Shown here: one piece after another, positions 22,345-31,858 of the stretch
How the letters are laid out: the number at the start of each line of letters is the position of its first letter
How positions within the stretch are numbered: position 1 is the stretch's first letter
NCBI GenBank assembly: GCA_016931175.1
Contig: JAFGFH010000026.1
Location: 1-64,000, forward strand
DNA length: 64,000 bases
DNA from: Nanobdellota archaeon
GTDB taxonomy: Archaea > Nanobdellota > Nanobdellia > Tiddalikarchaeales > Tiddalikarchaeaceae
Direction of reading: 5' to 3'
Notes under the pieces: model-generated
Database searches by the model: none
The model's input: the letters and a program-made list of their open reading frames with translations, nothing else
Told to the model about the DNA's origin: nothing
Program-made: the position numbers and the translations under genes

Positions 22345-22812
22345 ATGCAATACTTGAAAGAGGCGCAGGTTAAGGGCAAGAAGTTTTTTTCTATAGAAGA
22401 AGTTTTCAACATAGGTGATGTTTTATTCTCTAAATTATGCAATAAATATTCAAGAAAGTACGGTTTTAGCGCATTGCCTGTGCGCACTAATTGTTATATT
22501 CTTAACGTTGTTGATGATTTAATGTTTTCTGACGAAGACTGCAGTAATGTTCCTGAATTGGAAGAACTCGTCTTTCAGAGGGATGTTTTCAAACGCTTGT
22601 TCCCTTCCTTCAATGATTATGTATGCTTTTACTGCGAAGAAAAGAGTCAGGAGTTTTTCCTAATAAGTCCTGGCATGGATTTAAGTTCTTTATACTTTGA
22701 GCTTCCCAAGAAGGTTTCTATGGCAGGATTATGCTCTCTTGATAACATGGGAATGCCTGTAATGCTTATTAGCAATAACCAGTTGGAGAAGAAGTTACAG
22801 GAACAGGTTTGA
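22345..22812 (+). CDS. Hypothetical protein
   Basis: 155 aa ORF. Confidence 0.6.
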   Translation: MQYLKEAQVKGKKFFSIEEVFNIGDVLFSKLCNKYSRKYGFSALPVRTNCYILNVVDDLMFSDEDCSNVPELEELVFQRDVFKRLFPSFNDYVCFYCEEKSQEFFLISPGMDLSSLYFELPKKVSMAGLCSLDNMGMPVMLISNNQLEKKLQEQV

Positions 22813-23343
22813 GATATCTCTTCTACTATTCTTCTCTGCAATCTCTTTGTCTTGTTTGATTGACTCTGCTATTTGAAGCATTGCTTGGTACTTCTCATCA
22901 AACTCTGTTTCTTTTAGTTTTTCTTCTCTTTCCTCATCCGTTAATAAGTGGCCGCTGCATAATATTTCGCATACTGGTGCTATTGTGCACGTCTTTGCTG
23001 TATCGTTTCGTATTCCTACAGGGTCGCATTCAACATCGTCATTATAAGGGCAGTAATTTTCATTAATGTACTTGTCTGCTTTTTCCCTGTTCACTGGATT
23101 GTCTAGTTTGAGCATTATTCTTATTAATTCGCTGACCTCTTCTGGTTGTATCTCGTTAAAATCTAATGTTTCATACTTTTTTATCAAGTAACATACTGGT
23201 TGGTTGATGCATCTTGTTTCTAAAGTGTTGCAGTATTCCATCCCTCCTTCCATGGGGCAGTTTTTGCTAACATCTTCTTTTAATTCTTCAGTGTTCTTTT
23301 TTATGTATTCAAATGTTTTTAGTATCTTTGATAATTTTTTCAT
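22795..23343 (-). CDS. Cysteine-rich protein with duplicated Cys motif
   Basis: NCPMEGGMEYCNTLETRCINQPVCYLI and YCPYNDDVECDPVGIRNDTAKTCTIAPVCEIL. Confidence 0.7.
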   Translation of the reverse strand: MKKLSKILKTFEYIKKNTEELKEDVSKNCPMEGGMEYCNTLETRCINQPVCYLIKKYETLDFNEIQPEEVSELIRIMLKLDNPVNREKADKYINENYCPYNDDVECDPVGIRNDTAKTCTIAPVCEILCSGHLLTDEEREEKLKETEFDEKYQAMLQIAESIKQDKEIAEKNSRRDISNLFL

Positions 23344-23384
23344 AACAGTTATTCTATGATTGTTTTAAGTATTTAAGTATTCGC

Positions 23385-23402
23385 ACAACTAATCGTGGTT
23401 GT
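23385..23402. promoter_or_regulatory. Palindromic site ACAAC-N8-GTTGT upstream of the parvulin gene
   Basis: ACAACtaatcgtgGTTGT, upstream of TTTATAAA. Confidence 0.65.
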
Positions 23403-23446
23403 AGCAGACATAGTTTTATAAAACACTCAGTGTTTCTCATTTAATT

Positions 23447-23725
23447 ATGAGTGACGAGATTAGTGCCAAGCACATACTGGTTGATAATGAGGAGGCTGCG
23501 AATTTTATTCTGAAAAAAATTGCTGAAGGCGAGTCTTTTGAAGAACTAGCAATGGAGTACAGCGCCTGCCCGAGCGGGAGAAGAGGAGGAGACCTCGGGC
23601 AATTCAGCAAGGGAATGATGGTGAAAGAATTCGAGGACGCAGTCTTTAGCCTAAAACCTGGAGAAACAACAAAAACACCAGTAAAAACACAATTCGGCTA
23701 CCACATTATCAAGAGAACTGGTTAA
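23447..23725 (+). CDS. Parvulin-type (PpiC) peptidyl-prolyl cis-trans isomerase
   Basis: SAKHILVDNEEAANFILKKIAEGESFEELAMEYSACPSGRRGGDLGQFSKGMMVKEFEDAVFSLKPGE...FGYHIIKR. Confidence 0.95.
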   Translation: MSDEISAKHILVDNEEAANFILKKIAEGESFEELAMEYSACPSGRRGGDLGQFSKGMMVKEFEDAVFSLKPGETTKTPVKTQFGYHIIKRTG

Positions 23726-23764
23726 TTGGGTTAATTTTTTAATGAGCTAATTTATTAATAGGTT

Positions 23765-23881
23765 GTGAATCGCAAGGGTTTAAATGGCAGGGATATAATA
23801 ATTATTGTAATAGTTTCTGTCTTAATCCTTTTTGTGTATTTTATTTACTTTTTCCCGCAAATAGTTAATAACTTAAAATAA
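23765..23881 (+). CDS. Possible 38-aa single-TM peptide
   Basis: GTG start; VNRKGLNGRDIIIIVIVSVLILFVYFIYFFPQIVNNLK. Confidence 0.3.
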   Translation: MNRKGLNGRDIIIIVIVSVLILFVYFIYFFPQIVNNLK

Positions 23882-23946
23882 GCCATTAAAAAAGTTTTTA
23901 AATACTTCTTTTTAATATTAGAAACTGCTAAGAAGAGTGGTATTAT

Positions 23947-24234
23947 TTGGCAAAGTTTGATTTCAATAATGGCTCGTTAAAAGAGGTTTTGGATTCTGTT
24001 AAAGCCGTTAAGTTAACTAAACCTATAGATTTTTGTGAATGCAATGATATTGTTTACAGCGGACGAGACCGTCTTAAGACACTTGTTAAAAATAAAGTGT
24101 GTGAGAAGGAAGACAGGCAGAAGATATATACAGAGATGAAGAATTTCAGCTTCTTTTACTGTTCAACATGTAAAAAGTATTACTGGATGCTTGATTCTGA
24201 GTTTGAAAAAAGAAAAACAAGCATTAATGGATGA
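23947..24234 (+). CDS. Hypothetical protein with Cys pairs (possible zinc binding)
   Basis: DFCECND ... YCSTCKKYYW. Confidence 0.6.
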   Translation: MAKFDFNNGSLKEVLDSVKAVKLTKPIDFCECNDIVYSGRDRLKTLVKNKVCEKEDRQKIYTEMKNFSFFYCSTCKKYYWMLDSEFEKRKTSING

Positions 24235-24449
24235 TTAATATGAACGCGTCTGAACTATTAGGAACATACTTGATGATTTCAGGCTTTGCGTCCATAATCA
24301 CAGGCATAGTTTACATGTCCTTAGGAGACCCTGCTGGAACTGCTTTAATAGCAGGTTCAGGATTCTTCTTATCAGGAGCAAAATACGCTTACACTTACAG
24401 TTCTGCAAAACAAGAATCCAGAAAAGGGTTGGAAAAAGAATTAGACTAG
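24231..24449 (+). CDS. Small membrane protein
   Basis: 72 aa, two hydrophobic helices, overlaps upstream gene. Confidence 0.6.
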   Translation: MINMNASELLGTYLMISGFASIITGIVYMSLGDPAGTALIAGSGFFLSGAKYAYTYSSAKQESRKGLEKELD

Positions 24450-25307
24450 TATTTCACTAGCTAATTCGAATAATCCCTGACTATTCTCTAACTCTTGCCC
24501 TTTCTCTTTCTTTCTGAAAGCGTAACTCGCAGCTTCAACTATTTCAAAAGGCTCAATACTTCTATTCACAAGGTATTCTCCTGCCTTCCTGCTGTACTCG
24601 TAACCCTTCCTAGTCTCATGCGTTGAAACGTAAGTAATGCACTGGATAGTGTCCCATAAACTATTGCCCTCAGGGTAATACTTGCTTAAAGCCTTGATGA
24701 TTAAATTATCCGTCTTGCCTAATGCCTGGATAATCATAGCAAGCTGCGTGCCTTCATCAAGAACTATTTCTTGCGCAGTTTCAACACTGTTAAGCACTAC
24801 TCCTAAATCATTGCTGACCTTCCTAATCTTATCCTTCAAATCAGCACTGTTAAGCCTGTGAATAATCTTCTCACCTACTCCTCCGTGAGTAACGATTAAG
24901 CCGTTGCTGCACACGAAAGCGTCATGATACACTCCCAGTTTTACTGCCATGCTTCCCAAGTTTGCAGGAAAAACAACCAAGGGATTAACTCTGCCAATAC
25001 TATTCTCTAAACCAGTATCGTAAACCCTTACAATACCTTCCCTGTAACTCTTCTCAGTAAAGTCAGTGCCGAACTCAGACTCGCACGCGTTAACTATTTC
25101 AGCAACACTAATTGGAGTGAATTGTTCAGACACTACTGTAACAATCCTGTCACCAACAATGCCGAAATACTTATCGCCTTTAATGCGCGAGTATTTAGCG
25201 CTGACATCCTTTCCTGCCTTGTAATTGCTGAGAACAACCTCTTCCTCCTTTTTCCATTCCAGACTGTTCTCAAAACTTACTAAATCATCTATTGAACTAA
25301 ACTTCAT
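24441..25307 (-). CDS. DUF932-like protein
   Basis: YFGIVGDRIVTVVSEQFTPISVAEIVNACESEFG...VFPANLGSMAVKLGVYHDAFVCSNGLIV...HETRKGYEYSRKAGEYL resembles the DUF932/phage-plasmid-like family. Confidence 0.55.
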   Translation of the reverse strand: MKFSSIDDLVSFENSLEWKKEEEVVLSNYKAGKDVSAKYSRIKGDKYFGIVGDRIVTVVSEQFTPISVAEIVNACESEFGTDFTEKSYREGIVRVYDTGLENSIGRVNPLVVFPANLGSMAVKLGVYHDAFVCSNGLIVTHGGVGEKIIHRLNSADLKDKIRKVSNDLGVVLNSVETAQEIVLDEGTQLAMIIQALGKTDNLIIKALSKYYPEGNSLWDTIQCITYVSTHETRKGYEYSRKAGEYLVNRSIEPFEIVEAASYAFRKKEKGQELENSQGLFELASEILV

Positions 25308-25363
25308 AAATCATTTCACCTCTAAGAAGAACTAATGCTTACAAAACCACTTATAAACTTAGC

Positions 25364-25381
25364 ACAACCTTTAATTGTTGT
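25364..25381. promoter_or_regulatory. Palindromic site ACAAC-N8-GTTGT upstream of the DUF932-like gene
   Basis: ACAACctttaattGTTGT, 6 nt upstream of the minus-strand TATA box (cttataaac on + strand). Confidence 0.65.
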
Positions 25382-25454
25382 AATTATTTAAGAGAATTAA
25401 CCAAGTCAATGAAATCCCTTTCTTCTCCCATAAAAAAATTATAAAAGTATCTAA

Positions 25455-27029
25455 TTAGGCTCTGTAAATTCTTTCCTTCTTCCTTCTCAGAATCTCTGAT
25501 GCTGGATTCTCTATCTCTTGTAACAGTATTGGGTCATCCAGTGCTGATTCAGGGTATACCATACTAGGTGTTACGTACTTATTATTAGCTTCCCTTAACT
25601 CTGTTAATAGAGAAGATGTTTGTTCCATACCCTTAGTTTCTTCAATCATCTCCTGACTTAATGGATTTATCTCATTCCTTTGACCCTTTACCTCAACACT
25701 TCCCTTAGGAAGCCTTATTTTGCTGACACTGCCTTGCTCATCCATATAATAAGTCATTGAAGTGCTAGCCTTCTCAGCAACATCTCTCAGCTTATTAACG
25801 CCGTAATAGGTTCCAGCAACTACTGCACCCACCGTTGCACCCGCAGCAAGTATTAAACCTGCTAATACGAGGGCGGGTATTGCACCTTCACCGTTAGCGC
25901 CATCAACACAACCTGCTGCAGCACTTCCTACTGCTTCAAAGAATCCCGCGATTCCCTCACCTATCATGGAGATTCCATCACTTATTGCATTTAAGGCGCT
26001 TACTGAGAAATCACCTATTACTTTACCTATCCCTTCAATACTCTTGTACAGGTTTACTCCAAGATTATACATTCCTTCAAAGACTACACTGCCGAACCTG
26101 TAACCATCTCCTAAGTACAAGTTGCCGCTTAACAAGTCAAGTCCGAAGGTTGTATGGTAACCTAATAATGAATCAAGCCCCGTATCTAATCCGGGTCCAA
26201 TAATAATTCCTCCATTTGGTCCAATACCAATATCAATAGACAAGACATTGTTATCAAGCAAAGCCTCCAAACAAGTTGAACCAAGTGAAGATTTCACCTT
26301 TTTATCCAAGGATTTTATGTCTTGTACGAACTCTTCCTTTCTCGCACCCTCCACCTTGCCAATGCCGTGCTTTAATACTTTTAAAAAGTCATTCTTTGCT
26401 TTAAACTCTGCACCAATTTTTTTGCCGTCATAGTATAATAATCCTAAATCCTTGCCGTCTTTAACGATGCTCATACAATAAACATCATTGGATGCGCGTG
26501 CAATCTCTGTAACACAATTCTTATACTTTGCGCTTATGGCATCAGCTAGTGTCTTAAGCTCTTCAGGCAATGGCAGACCTAACTGTTCATCCTTAACCGC
26601 GTCAGCAAGAACGGTCTTGCTTATAATATCCTCAATATGATCTTCTGCACCTGATTTGCCGAATATTTTTTCAAACTTCTTAGTTTGTTCATAAGAAGCA
26701 GTGATTATGACGTCATAGTAAGCATCTCTCTTATGATTCACGTTTTCTGTACTTATCTCACTCTCATATAACTTGTTGTCAATGCCTTTATTTACATCCT
26801 CTTTTATCAATAAGTGTGCAGTTTTAGTACTTCCTTTCCTGAACATCTTATAACAATTAGCAGGAGAGTACTTGCCTCTGCCAAGATTTACCTCATCCGG
26901 CAAAGATTCACACACTTGGTTCAGTGTGTACTTTTCCATAATGCTCCAGAAAGCAGACTCGAATCTTTGAGCCTCTTCCTTTGTTGCAAAACTCTTGGTT
27001 ATTGATTGTTTATCTTTCACTGACATCAT
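25455..27029 (-). CDS. Hypothetical protein with Gly-rich hydrophobic C-terminal half
   Basis: 524 aa; VLSIDIGIGPNGGIIIGPGLDTGLDSLLG... and IPALVLAGLILAAGATVGAVVAGTYYG. Confidence 0.7.
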   Translation of the reverse strand: MMSVKDKQSITKSFATKEEAQRFESAFWSIMEKYTLNQVCESLPDEVNLGRGKYSPANCYKMFRKGSTKTAHLLIKEDVNKGIDNKLYESEISTENVNHKRDAYYDVIITASYEQTKKFEKIFGKSGAEDHIEDIISKTVLADAVKDEQLGLPLPEELKTLADAISAKYKNCVTEIARASNDVYCMSIVKDGKDLGLLYYDGKKIGAEFKAKNDFLKVLKHGIGKVEGARKEEFVQDIKSLDKKVKSSLGSTCLEALLDNNVLSIDIGIGPNGGIIIGPGLDTGLDSLLGYHTTFGLDLLSGNLYLGDGYRFGSVVFEGMYNLGVNLYKSIEGIGKVIGDFSVSALNAISDGISMIGEGIAGFFEAVGSAAAGCVDGANGEGAIPALVLAGLILAAGATVGAVVAGTYYGVNKLRDVAEKASTSMTYYMDEQGSVSKIRLPKGSVEVKGQRNEINPLSQEMIEETKGMEQTSSLLTELREANNKYVTPSMVYPESALDDPILLQEIENPASEILRRKKERIYRA

Positions 27030-27154
27030 ACCCTATCCTTAGAATATTATACTTATAAACCCTTATTCGAGAAAAACAGGGAAATAGGGGATTTATTTCC
27101 AGAAAACAGAACAAAAACAGTAAAATTTCCCATTGCCTAACAAGATTTATAAAC

Positions 27155-27898
27155 TTGATACAACTAATAATGGTTGTTATGGAAGAATTGCTAAGGAAAC
27201 TGGGTTTAAATAAGTACGAGGCTGAATCCTATCTTGCATTATTAAATCTTGGTCCTAGCAGTGCTTTTAATATCAGCAAGAACGGTTCAGTTCCCTTCGG
27301 AAGAGTTTACGACAGTTTGAACAGTTTAGAGCAGAAAGGACTGGTCGAAGTAGTGCCAAGCAAGCCTAAAAAGTACAAAGCAGTGAGTCCTGAGACTGCG
27401 CTTAACGGCTTATTGGACGAGCAGCTGAATAATGTTAAGAAGATGCGCAGTGAAGTGGATACAGCTGTAAAGAGCTTTAAAAAGGCAGACAAGTCGGACA
27501 ATACTGTCAGCGTAAGCGAGGGCATGATTAACTTCGCGAAAGCAGTTACTGAACACTTACACTACAAGGGTGAGTACTGGGCAACAAGTGAAGGATTCAA
27601 GCTGGAAAAAAAGTACCCTGCTTTATGGAGGTACTTGGACGGCAACCCGAAGAAGAGGTATGTATTAGTTAACAAGGACAAAGTGGACAAGAAAAGAATA
27701 AAAGAGCTGCAGAGCTACGGAGTGAATGTTAAAAGCTATCCATTAGAGAACGTCAGATTTCTGGTAAGCGACGAGGAATTAGTAACAATATCACTCCAAG
27801 ACAAAGGCTTCACAAACATTCACATCAAGAGCAAAGCATTAGGAAAAGCGCTTACCAAGATGCTAAAAACAGTCTGGGAAAAATCTGAAAAAGTGTAA
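27155..27898 (+). CDS. TrmB-family transcriptional regulator (likely start ATG 27179)
   Basis: MEELLRKLGLNKYEAESYLALLNLGPSSAFNISKNGSVPFGRVYDSLNSLEQKGLVEVVPSKPKKYKAVSPETAL. Confidence 0.9.
   Translation: MIQLIMVVMEELLRKLGLNKYEAESYLALLNLGPSSAFNISKNGSVPFGRVYDSLNSLEQKGLVEVVPSKPKKYKAVSPETALNGLLDEQLNNVKKMRSEVDTAVKSFKKADKSDNTVSVSEGMINFAKAVTEHLHYKGEYWATSEGFKLEKKYPALWRYLDGNPKKRYVLVNKDKVDKKRIKELQSYGVNVKSYPLENVRFLVSDEELVTISLQDKGFTNIHIKSKALGKALTKMLKTVWEKSEKV
27160..27177. promoter_or_regulatory. Palindromic site ACAAC-N8-GTTGT at the trmB-like promoter
   Basis: ACAACtaataatgGTTGT between TATA (TTTATAAA, 27146-27153) and likely ATG (27179). Confidence 0.7.
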
Positions 27899-28651: not shown

Positions 28652-31600
28652 ATGTCCACGATGGCCTTAGATAAAGATGATTTTGAAGAATTTAAGAGAA
28701 TATTATTTTTTAAAAAATATGATGTTACAGTTAAAAATAAGACAGTTTGGGAGACAAGTGGTTATTGCGGCCTTGCAATATTAAGAGTAGTTATTAATAA
28801 CTATCTCAAAGATAAAGGTTTTGAATTCTCTAAACTAGTTAAGTATGTTAAAGAAAAATTCCCAGATGAACTAGCAGAATTAATAGACAGATTATACAGG
28901 GCAAGAAGACTTATTGAAGATCCAAGCGATAAGACTAAGGTTCTTGCAACCGATGAGACTAAGGTTCTCTTGCTCTTAGGCTGCGCACTTAGATTATACG
29001 ATGATGATATAGTTGTGAATTTGATACATAATGACGGTTGGATAACCAATGAATTCATAACATTAATATTATACTTGTTTGGTTTTGAAGTGCCAGGTGA
29101 TGAAGCGCATGAGTTTAAAGCCCCCAGTAAATTAGATGCTGTTATTAAGTTCTTAGCAACCATTAATCCCTCAGATGTTATTGTCTTAATCAATAAAGGA
29201 GGAGGCAATCATTGGGTCCTGCTTGAAAGAATAGAGAAAAAAGGTGACAAGAACTATTATGTTTATTACGACCCTGAAGGATACGAGAACTACGTTGAGT
29301 ATGATCCTCTTGACAATTTATACATTTATCACTTCAAAAAACCATTTAACATAGTTAATCAGGTGCTTCAAGAAAAGAAAGACTCAGAGATAAGAGATAA
29401 TTTAAGAAAATTATTCGCTACACAATTAACAGATAGTTATATTTCAAGTATTTTCATGGCACCACCAAGCAAATTACACCCTCCTGTTCCTGCTTCTCCT
29501 GATAAGATTGAGAATAAAAAAATAAATTTTACCCTTTTAGGAAGATTAGGAATCCCTGTTAATATAACCCAATTAAACGCGTCTAGTGCAGGCATTTATG
29601 GTATATTATTCCTACAACAAGACGAACAAGGCAATGTAATAAAGGCCTTATCAGTAAATATTGATAAAGGATTAAGCGAAAGAGGTTATGATACTCCCTT
29701 TGTTATTATTAATAATGTTAATCCTTCAAATAGTTATGAAAAAATATTCAAAGAACTAATCCCTGTAGCACCATCTTTGGTAGAAAAGCAACCAAATGGC
29801 AGTTATAGGGTTTGCATAATCTATGATACTGATAAAGAAGGTTTTGTAGATTATCATAAGATGTTAACCTCCCCAGAATCGAGATTCTTTGTTATTGAAA
29901 AAAAAGGCAACCTTGTGACAGTCAAGGATGATTCAAATTATAAAACCCACCATCTAGTGTTAAAGGGAAGTCTTTCTAAGGTTAACACATCTAAAATAAT
30001 TGATTACAGCAGCATTGAGTGTTCGGCTCCGTTATTGGATCTTAATGAGTATACATCTAATATTATGGCAACTTCATCAACAGTGGTAAATGTTAATCTT
30101 TTTTACAAATATAGTTTAGAGTCGCCTGATGTACTGCGTCCATCTTCTCAAGATTTTAAACCAAAGCAGAGTTTTTTAAACAATTTAGAAATACTGCTTA
30201 ACCGATTCAAATTGGCTTTAACAGTAGAAAAGGATAATGTCTTTGTAAAAGGATTCCTTAATGTGTTTAAGGCTGTTAATGAAAAAGTGGATTCCGAACC
30301 AGGTTTTTATGCAGACACTAATATTCCTAAACTATTAGAGGATATTCTTGCATTATTATACAAGTTTTTACACAATGAGTTGATAAATACTTATGACATT
30401 TATGCAAAACTGCGTGATACAATCAATAAATTCAATAAGTCTTACAAACCTGAGAAGAAAAAATGGGTTTATTTTGGAGAACGTAATGCTAAGAACAGGA
30501 AAAAAATATTTTTGGACAAGCTGAAAAATAAACTCTCATTACCTTATAAGCAATGGTTAGATTTGCATTATTTGAAAAAAGCAAAGGATGATGATGTTGA
30601 AAGGTTTATACAAGAGGATTACGCTGACAAGGTTCAGAATAGACTAAGAAAAGGTCTTGAACTTTTTCTGGAGTTCCAGAAATTATTTGGTGTGAATTCA
30701 AGCAAACAATTGTCTGCAAAGATAAGGCAGTTAGAAATCCAGCCTGATTATTATGAAACATTCTTTGCTTTCCTCCCGAAGGATGTTCTTTCCAAGCCCG
30801 GTTTCATGCCAGGTTTCAAAGAAGAAAATATAAACAAAATAATTGATGATCTAATGATTATGAATGAATTATTTGAAAGATTGGGAGAGGAGTTAGATTA
30901 TCAGGATATTAAAAAAGATGTTAAAAAGAATCAAGAAGAGCTTGACGAAATCAGGAATAATTTCAATAATGAAGCAGATGATGATATTTCTTTAAAAGAG
31001 TATGATATTTATGTACCTACTGAAGCTGACAAACAGGACAAGTTAATTACAGGTATGCAGGAAAAGAATGCAGAAATTGTTAAAAATCAATTGGTTGAAA
31101 TAAGGCAGGACCTTAAAAGCAAAGGTGTGAACCCAGAGAAAGAGCCTGAGAAAATAGAATACGAATATTATTATGACGATTGGTATGATGATGGTGGAGG
31201 AGATTGGGATGAGGTTATTCCAGATTATGATTTCCTAGATGCTATAAAAAGTATAATGGATTTCTTAAAGATCTCTGATGGATTTAATGTTAAAGAAGCA
31301 TATAAGAAAGGTCCTGATTATTATATTGATAAGTTTAAAAGAATATTTGAAAAAGGAGATTTCAGAGATAAGAGTTTGCTTATAGAATTCCTGGTTTTAG
31401 TATTATGCTTTGCTGAAGAATTATTACTTAGCATAAAAGAGAAGGCTAAAAATAAACCAATTAGGCTGAAAAAAGGAGGAGTTTTGATTATTAATAAATC
31501 AAACAAATCAGAATCTCATGGCAGTTCAAAATATTACTCAAAAGAAGATTTAGATAATGTAAAAAAAGTTATAGACCTTTTCTTAAGAAAGATAAGAGGG

Positions 31601-31858
31601 GATGAAATTACTGTTAAAGAATTATTTGAACAGATTAAGAATTTATATCTTGGATTTAATGTATTTGATTTGCCTTATGATGATAAGTATGAATGGTTTA
31701 TTAGGTGGGTTATTTACAGGATTTGGTTGCTGGTGAATTATAAGGAATTGCCTCTCTTTATTAATTCAAAAGATGTAAGTAGAGATTTATTAGAAGAAAA
31801 AATTAAGTTTGCTGAAGATGAAGCAATTGGTGCAGTAAATAGCTTAATAAAGCAATGA
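28652..31858 (+). CDS. 1068-aa protein with N-terminal papain/C39-like domain and C-terminal domain shared with 34483-35553
   Basis: ETSGYCGLAILR (Cys), GGGNHWVLLERI (His), YYVYYDPEGY (Asp) in correct order; C-terminal YDDKYEWFIRWVIYRIWLL. Confidence 0.7.
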   Translation: MSTMALDKDDFEEFKRILFFKKYDVTVKNKTVWETSGYCGLAILRVVINNYLKDKGFEFSKLVKYVKEKFPDELAELIDRLYRARRLIEDPSDKTKVLATDETKVLLLLGCALRLYDDDIVVNLIHNDGWITNEFITLILYLFGFEVPGDEAHEFKAPSKLDAVIKFLATINPSDVIVLINKGGGNHWVLLERIEKKGDKNYYVYYDPEGYENYVEYDPLDNLYIYHFKKPFNIVNQVLQEKKDSEIRDNLRKLFATQLTDSYISSIFMAPPSKLHPPVPASPDKIENKKINFTLLGRLGIPVNITQLNASSAGIYGILFLQQDEQGNVIKALSVNIDKGLSERGYDTPFVIINNVNPSNSYEKIFKELIPVAPSLVEKQPNGSYRVCIIYDTDKEGFVDYHKMLTSPESRFFVIEKKGNLVTVKDDSNYKTHHLVLKGSLSKVNTSKIIDYSSIECSAPLLDLNEYTSNIMATSSTVVNVNLFYKYSLESPDVLRPSSQDFKPKQSFLNNLEILLNRFKLALTVEKDNVFVKGFLNVFKAVNEKVDSEPGFYADTNIPKLLEDILALLYKFLHNELINTYDIYAKLRDTINKFNKSYKPEKKKWVYFGERNAKNRKKIFLDKLKNKLSLPYKQWLDLHYLKKAKDDDVERFIQEDYADKVQNRLRKGLELFLEFQKLFGVNSSKQLSAKIRQLEIQPDYYETFFAFLPKDVLSKPGFMPGFKEENINKIIDDLMIMNELFERLGEELDYQDIKKDVKKNQEELDEIRNNFNNEADDDISLKEYDIYVPTEADKQDKLITGMQEKNAEIVKNQLVEIRQDLKSKGVNPEKEPEKIEYEYYYDDWYDDGGGDWDEVIPDYDFLDAIKSIMDFLKISDGFNVKEAYKKGPDYYIDKFKRIFEKGDFRDKSLLIEFLVLVLCFAEELLLSIKEKAKNKPIRLKKGGVLIINKSNKSESHGSSKYYSKEDLDNVKKVIDLFLRKIRGDEITVKELFEQIKNLYLGFNVFDLPYDDKYEWFIRWVIYRIWLLVNYKELPLFINSKDVSRDLLEEKIKFAEDEAIGAVNSLIKQ

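Follow-up and report, generated by a model that had tools for sequence, protein, structure and literature searches.

A 64,000-nucleotide stretch of contig JAFGFH010000026.1 from a Nanobdellota archaeon of the family Tiddalikarchaeaceae (this whole stretch is called the window below) carries a gene for a TrmB-like regulator and, within 3.8 kb, three exact copies of the palindrome ACAAC-N8-GTTGT, which we regard as putative operators of that regulator. A pattern search of the 64 kb located them at 23385-23402 (operator 1, ACAACTAATCGTGGTTGT), 25364-25381 (operator 2, ACAACCTTTAATTGTTGT) and 27160-27177 (operator 3, ACAACTAATAATGGTTGT), none being assigned to a strand. These are the places given in a previous sequence-only reading of this DNA, and no fourth exact copy was found in the window. 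Operator 3 lies in the gap between the TATA element and the start codon of the regulator gene (27179-27898, forward strand; about 239 amino acids (aa), likely leaderless). Operator 2 precedes a reverse-strand gene for a DUF932-like protein (24441-25307; 288 aa), and operator 1 is located between a reverse-strand gene for a cysteine-rich (Cys-rich) protein (22795-23343; 182 aa) and a forward-strand gene for a parvulin-type peptidyl-prolyl isomerase (23447-23725; 92 aa). In this genome only, a gene for a 524-aa Gly-rich protein (25455-27029, reverse strand) stands between the regulator and the DUF932-like genes.

In a Pfam search, the regulator matched the winged helix-turn-helix domain PF01978 with an E-value of 5.5e-23 (81 bits against a curated cut-off of 25.6). 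PF01978 was the sole family returned by Pfam, and no sugar-binding effector domain was recognised in the protein. The recognition helix, VPFGRVYDSL, contains a Tyr-Asp pair (Y50/D51 of TrmB) which is likewise present in the orthologs from two relatives of the same family, genomes G004 and G002, and in the regulator of G066, a genome of another family. The regulator profile aligned over its full length to TrmBL2 structures, for example 5bpd (residues 3-241 to 7-264, E 4e-17), alongside an NCBIfam TrmBL2 score of 47 against 530. Matches to the NCBIfam TrmBL1/TrmB models covered residues 4-110 only and reached 74 bits against 650, which is below equivalog level.

The start codon of the regulator gene was set at ATG 27179 because the aligned orthologs start one base 3' of the palindrome. 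With this start all three sites are intergenic, as had been claimed, whereas a start at TTG 27155 (the longest open reading frame, ORF) or at ATG 27170 would overlap operator 3. The regulator promoter consists of the TATA element TTTATAAA (27146-27153, forward strand), 5-6 nucleotides (nt), the palindrome, 0-3 nt and the ATG, and G004 and G002 have an identical TATA element with equal spacing. The DUF932-like promoter is built as palindrome, 6 nt, TTTATAA, a leader with AGGTGA and ATG in the window as well as in both relatives, GTTGT-6 nt-TTTATAA being constant; in the window its TATA element is TTTATAAG (25350-25357, reverse strand). Operator 1 is separated by 7 nt from the TATA-like element CTTAAATA (23370-23377, reverse strand) of the Cys-rich gene and, on its other side, by 11 nt from the TATA element TTTTATAA of the parvulin gene.

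Five genomes of the family were compared (G000, which contains the window, and G001 to G004), together with 378 genomes sampled from the class. The regulator orthologs of G004 and G002 show 54-55% identity, and in both the exact palindrome is kept one base 5' of the start codon while its N8 bases are different, so that the conservation expected upstream of regulator orthologs was borne out. In these two relatives the regulator gene and the DUF932-like gene (50-52% protein identity to that of the window) are divergently oriented across one shared palindrome, a small Cys-rich gene comes next, and TTTATAAA is the sole good TATA element for both directions. No regulator ortholog was found in G001, which belongs to the same genus, or in G003, and the exact palindrome occurs nowhere in either genome. 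The same 3 of the 378 class genomes harbour close orthologs of all three genes, regulator, DUF932-like and Cys-rich; the close copies of the DUF932-like gene number three, all in regulator-bearing genomes, and the Cys-rich gene was found in G000, G002 and G004 only. The conserved site-to-TATA spacing and divergent pairing support the earlier proposal that the DUF932-like gene is a target, and the palindrome is a conserved element tied to the TrmB-like gene, where its location between TATA and ATG predicts autorepression, as had been proposed.

In the window, the DUF932-like promoter reads GTTGTAATTATT, and the G004 regulator start has GTTGTAATGAGT. This is consistent with an ancestral divergent pair that would later have been split by the 524-aa gene, each half retaining its own copy of the site. 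The 524-aa gene itself, which had been listed as a possible target, has its own TATA element (about 27052-27059), next to which there is no site, and in G004 and G002 it does not lie between the divergently oriented genes; we no longer count it in the regulon.

Genome-wide statements refer to pattern searches and selected stretches of the 887-kb genome (26 contigs). In it the exact palindrome occurs four times and a reversed control pattern once. The single exact copy outside the window falls within the intron of a tRNA-Tyr gene and was rejected as a target; this tRNA-Tyr(GTA) gene (L004:1440-1582, G000:C12) has an intron of about 68 bases 3' of the anticodon, and the palindrome in it is probably a coincidence. 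When up to one mismatch was allowed, the window gave six matches against 1.7 expected, a number that none of 100 shuffles reached. Genome-wide, one-mismatch sites were not enriched (16 beyond the exact ones, compared with 25 for the control pattern), and 9 of the 11 inspected were within ORFs, so that the signal comes down to the three exact copies, which lie at gene starts within 3.8 kb. The proposed genome scan thus returned next to no exact copies beyond the window and no wider set of degenerate sites, and a larger regulon with such sites was rejected. The likely regulon is a local one of two or three targets, served by the operators at 23385, 25364 and 27160. An Rfam search found no RNA family match for the element, and transcripts from these promoters should not include the sites upstream of TATA; a DNA operator therefore fits better than an RNA element.

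We consider it likely that the regulator represses its own gene from 27160 and, bound directly upstream of the respective TATA elements, activates the DUF932-like and Cys-rich genes. This short winged-helix protein would bind the 18-bp ACAAC-N8-GTTGT element as a dimer. At its own gene, where the site fills the gap between TATA and the leaderless start, bound protein would block RNA polymerase and the regulator would limit its own synthesis. In the DUF932-like and Cys-rich promoters the site stands 6-7 nt upstream of TATA, beside the transcription factor B (TFB) recognition element (BRE), a position from which bound TrmB-family proteins can activate. These directions are predicted from the position rule of Pyrococcus TrmBL1: sites downstream of TATA inhibited polymerase recruitment and repressed all nine templates in vitro, and of three templates with sites upstream of BRE/TATA two were activated (PMC4706686). 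Activation at 25364 and 23385 is the less certain half of the model, autorepression at 27160 the more certain one. In the relatives, where one palindrome and the near-symmetrical TATA box TTTATAAA would serve both directions of the divergent pair, a single binding event could lower the regulator and raise its partner.

In its mode of action the system would follow known TrmB regulators, and what is new lies in the operator, the partner genes and the possible toggle around a shared TATA. Published TrmB operators read TACT-N3-AGTA, TATCAC-N5-GTGATA and TACT-N7-8-GAGTA (PMC4158304). None of the three has the half-site and spacing of ACAAC-N8-GTTGT, in agreement with the earlier reading of an undescribed regulon, and a literature search for the literal motif gave no match. 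TrmBL1/Tgr of Thermococcales, which binds the Thermococcales glycolytic motif (TGM, TATCAC-N5-GTGATA), shares with the window regulator the same Pfam family of winged helix-turn-helix domain, a palindromic operator, repression downstream of TATA and activation upstream of BRE (both predicted here), and autoregulation has been proposed for Tgr, the Thermococcus counterpart (PMC4158304, PMC4706686). Unlike TrmBL1/Tgr, the window regulator has the half-site ACAAC, an N8 spacer and no recognised sugar-binding domain, its likely targets are not sugar genes, and its regulon is local and not global. TrmBL2 of Thermococcales (PDB 5box, 5bpd, 5bqt) is similar in its full-length profile alignment and in its short C-terminal part without a sugar-binding domain, but it is described as a chromosomal protein on coding and intergenic DNA (PMC4158304), whereas the window has only a few sites, all at promoters. 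The Halobacterium regulator VNG1451C (TACT-N7-8-GAGTA) resembles our case in its long-spaced palindrome and, going by the directions predicted here, in acting as an activator upstream and a repressor downstream (PMC4158304); it differs in half-site, effector domain and its global metabolic regulon. Among the homologs, G214 has TACTC-N10-GAGTA before the start, resembling the VNG1451C operator.

The strongest rival is that the regulator is a pure repressor: sitting at the shared divergent region, it would reduce transcription both ways until released by an effector. Pyrococcus TrmB represses at BRE/TATA sites (PMC4158304), and a palindrome merely 6 nt from TATA may hinder TFB at BRE. TrmBL1, the closest mechanistic model, however, activated two of three upstream-site templates in vitro (PMC4706686), and we therefore regard pure repression as somewhat unlikely, albeit a live competitor to the dual mode of action.

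A second doubt concerns operator 1, which the sequence-only reading had assigned to the parvulin gene, placing a foldase in the regulon. The parvulin itself is well identified as a rotamase (PF13616, E 1.3e-24, 87 bits against a cut-off of 22.5), its gene has a good TATA element, TTTTATAA, 11 nt from the site and a leaderless-type start, and a divergent promoter could serve both flanking genes. However, the parvulin orthologs of G001 and G004 have no site, a search of G002 (81% complete) found no parvulin, and the 11-nt spacing falls outside the conserved range of 6-7 nt, with which the Cys-rich promoter agrees. It is also the Cys-rich gene, and not the parvulin gene, that co-occurs with the regulator. 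The small Cys-rich gene located 3' of the DUF932-like gene in G004 and G002 is a homolog of the window gene; it matches the C-terminal part of the 182-aa protein, with the conserved pattern CP..CDP..AK.C..C..DEERE. From this co-occurrence and the canonical site-to-TATA spacing, the Cys-rich gene, which had been overlooked, is the preferred target of operator 1, and a regulon that includes the parvulin gene, a possible but not conserved target, appears unlikely. The regulon described earlier would thus be right in outline, and is partly supported, with the Cys-rich gene in place of parvulin and the 524-aa gene left out.

Several observations weigh against this local regulon under dual control. 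Among the TATA boxes, that of the Cys-rich gene is the weakest, and operator 1 could still serve parvulin. The full gene set is carried by three genomes only. G004 has two more exact sites away from these genes, one in an rRNA-looking region and one intergenic, the latter preceding a 156-aa ORF without a homolog in the window. This third exact site of G004 (L028:1501-1518, G004:C4:100267) has a spacing to the 156-aa ORF like that of the DUF932-like promoter, and the ORF may be an extra target there.

The operator was also followed in the wider TrmB-like subfamily. In G066, whose regulator shows 34% identity, GTTGC replaces GTTGT, the rest is the same and the element lies directly 5' of the ATG; G233 has ACCAC-N8-GTGGT at the equivalent position, and the exact palindrome also precedes more distant regulators of G340, G242, G342 and G192 (second copy). 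ACAAC-N8-GTTGT was present in 7 of 42 upstream regions (3,990 bp) and did not occur in the remaining 110,622 bp of those loci. A perfect 5-8-5 palindrome of any half-site abutting the ATG, that is, ending within -2 to +4 nt of it, was found for 13 of the 42 closer homologs, against a mean of 0.95 and a maximum of 4 in 300 shuffles. Other spacers were near chance, save for 6 and 10, where the palindromes are largely the same ones, and for a small number of cases at 5 and 7. No spacer-8 excess (2 vs 1.1) was seen in a further set of 60 more distant TrmB proteins, the majority of which have different recognition helices. The architecture is thus confined to the closer subfamily, and the idea that it is general to all TrmB proteins was rejected.

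Among the closer homologs the half-site varies together with the recognition helix: P[FYHQ]G[RK]xY occurs with ACAAC, PHG[RK]TYE with ACTCC, PPTSVYRN with ATTAG(T/C), PPTAVY with ATTAAT and PQSKIY with TTTAAC, a grouping that comes from the same data that suggested it and is not an independent test. We tentatively propose, as a possibility that we rate below an even chance, a nanoarchaeal TrmB-like subfamily in which the place and geometry of the operator are fixed (an 18-20 bp palindrome directly at the start codon, its core spacer being 8 bp) and in which the half-site varies with the recognition helix. At divergent pairs one symmetrical TATA might then be read both ways, the bound regulator setting the direction, as a toggle made of one TATA and one operator. 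In G118, a remote DUF932-like protein (E 5e-4, 20% identity) is encoded divergently from a TrmB-family gene with the 18-bp palindrome TGGTGATATAAATCACCA between them (L066:1180-2980, G118:C17); on this marginal homology the pair is suggestive of a possible independent case of the same pairing.

These comparisons bear on a further rival, in which another DNA-binding protein uses the palindromes as its operators to control the regulator gene and the genes around it, and the TrmB-like protein binds elsewhere. The window's genome does encode a second TrmB-family gene, at C14:39072, with relatives in G001 and G003, yet those two genomes have no exact site. Moreover, TrmB-like genes with unrelated surroundings are also preceded by the palindrome, whose half-site varies with the recognition helix of the adjoining protein. 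We consider control by another protein quite improbable, and infer that the TrmB-like regulator itself is what binds. Chance palindromes are scarcely credible, for even with 5-bp arms, which are short, and AT-rich intergenic sequence, about one exact match per genome is expected, whereas 3.8 kb here contain three, each beside a gene start, and their position is conserved in relatives while N8 changed.

For DPANN archaea, nearly everything said about transcription control is inference, and few operators are known; in the present case comparison alone allows a regulator to be named together with its operator and likely targets. The DUF932-like and Cys-rich proteins, both without an assigned function, are tied to one predicted switch, and the homolog set offers natural pairs of recognition helix and half-site, usable to read the TrmB DNA-recognition code.

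Other palindrome arrangements were seen near further homologs. L046:1344-1403 (G247:C23) holds a tandem pair of ACAAC-N7-GTTGT upstream of a TrmB-like gene, and N7 and N4 variants recur in L039, L048, L054 and L062. A second TrmB-like group (L056, L059, L061, L069, L070, L072, L080) has CAACC/CCACC-type palindromes upstream of TATA and not at the start codon, which would suit autoactivation or control of a divergent gene.

With regard to the DUF932-like protein, the name reflects a PF06067 (DUF932) score of 17.8-20 bits, under the Pfam gathering cut-off of 23. The weak profile match extends over the central part of the protein and includes a CSNG motif. Its structure was predicted with a mean pLDDT (predicted local distance difference test) of 57.6, the middle part being of low confidence. 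The protein had no match in phage or viral collections, and the gene module had no relatives among viral contigs or phage records, so that a viral origin of the module was rejected; a defence system was likewise rejected, with no PADLOC match of note. The 524-aa Gly-rich protein resembled phage tail families only faintly (E 0.02-0.04). Farther along the window, at 28652-31858, a 1068-aa ORF has an N-terminal part that by eye resembles a papain/C39-type cysteine peptidase (YCGLAILR...NHWVLL).

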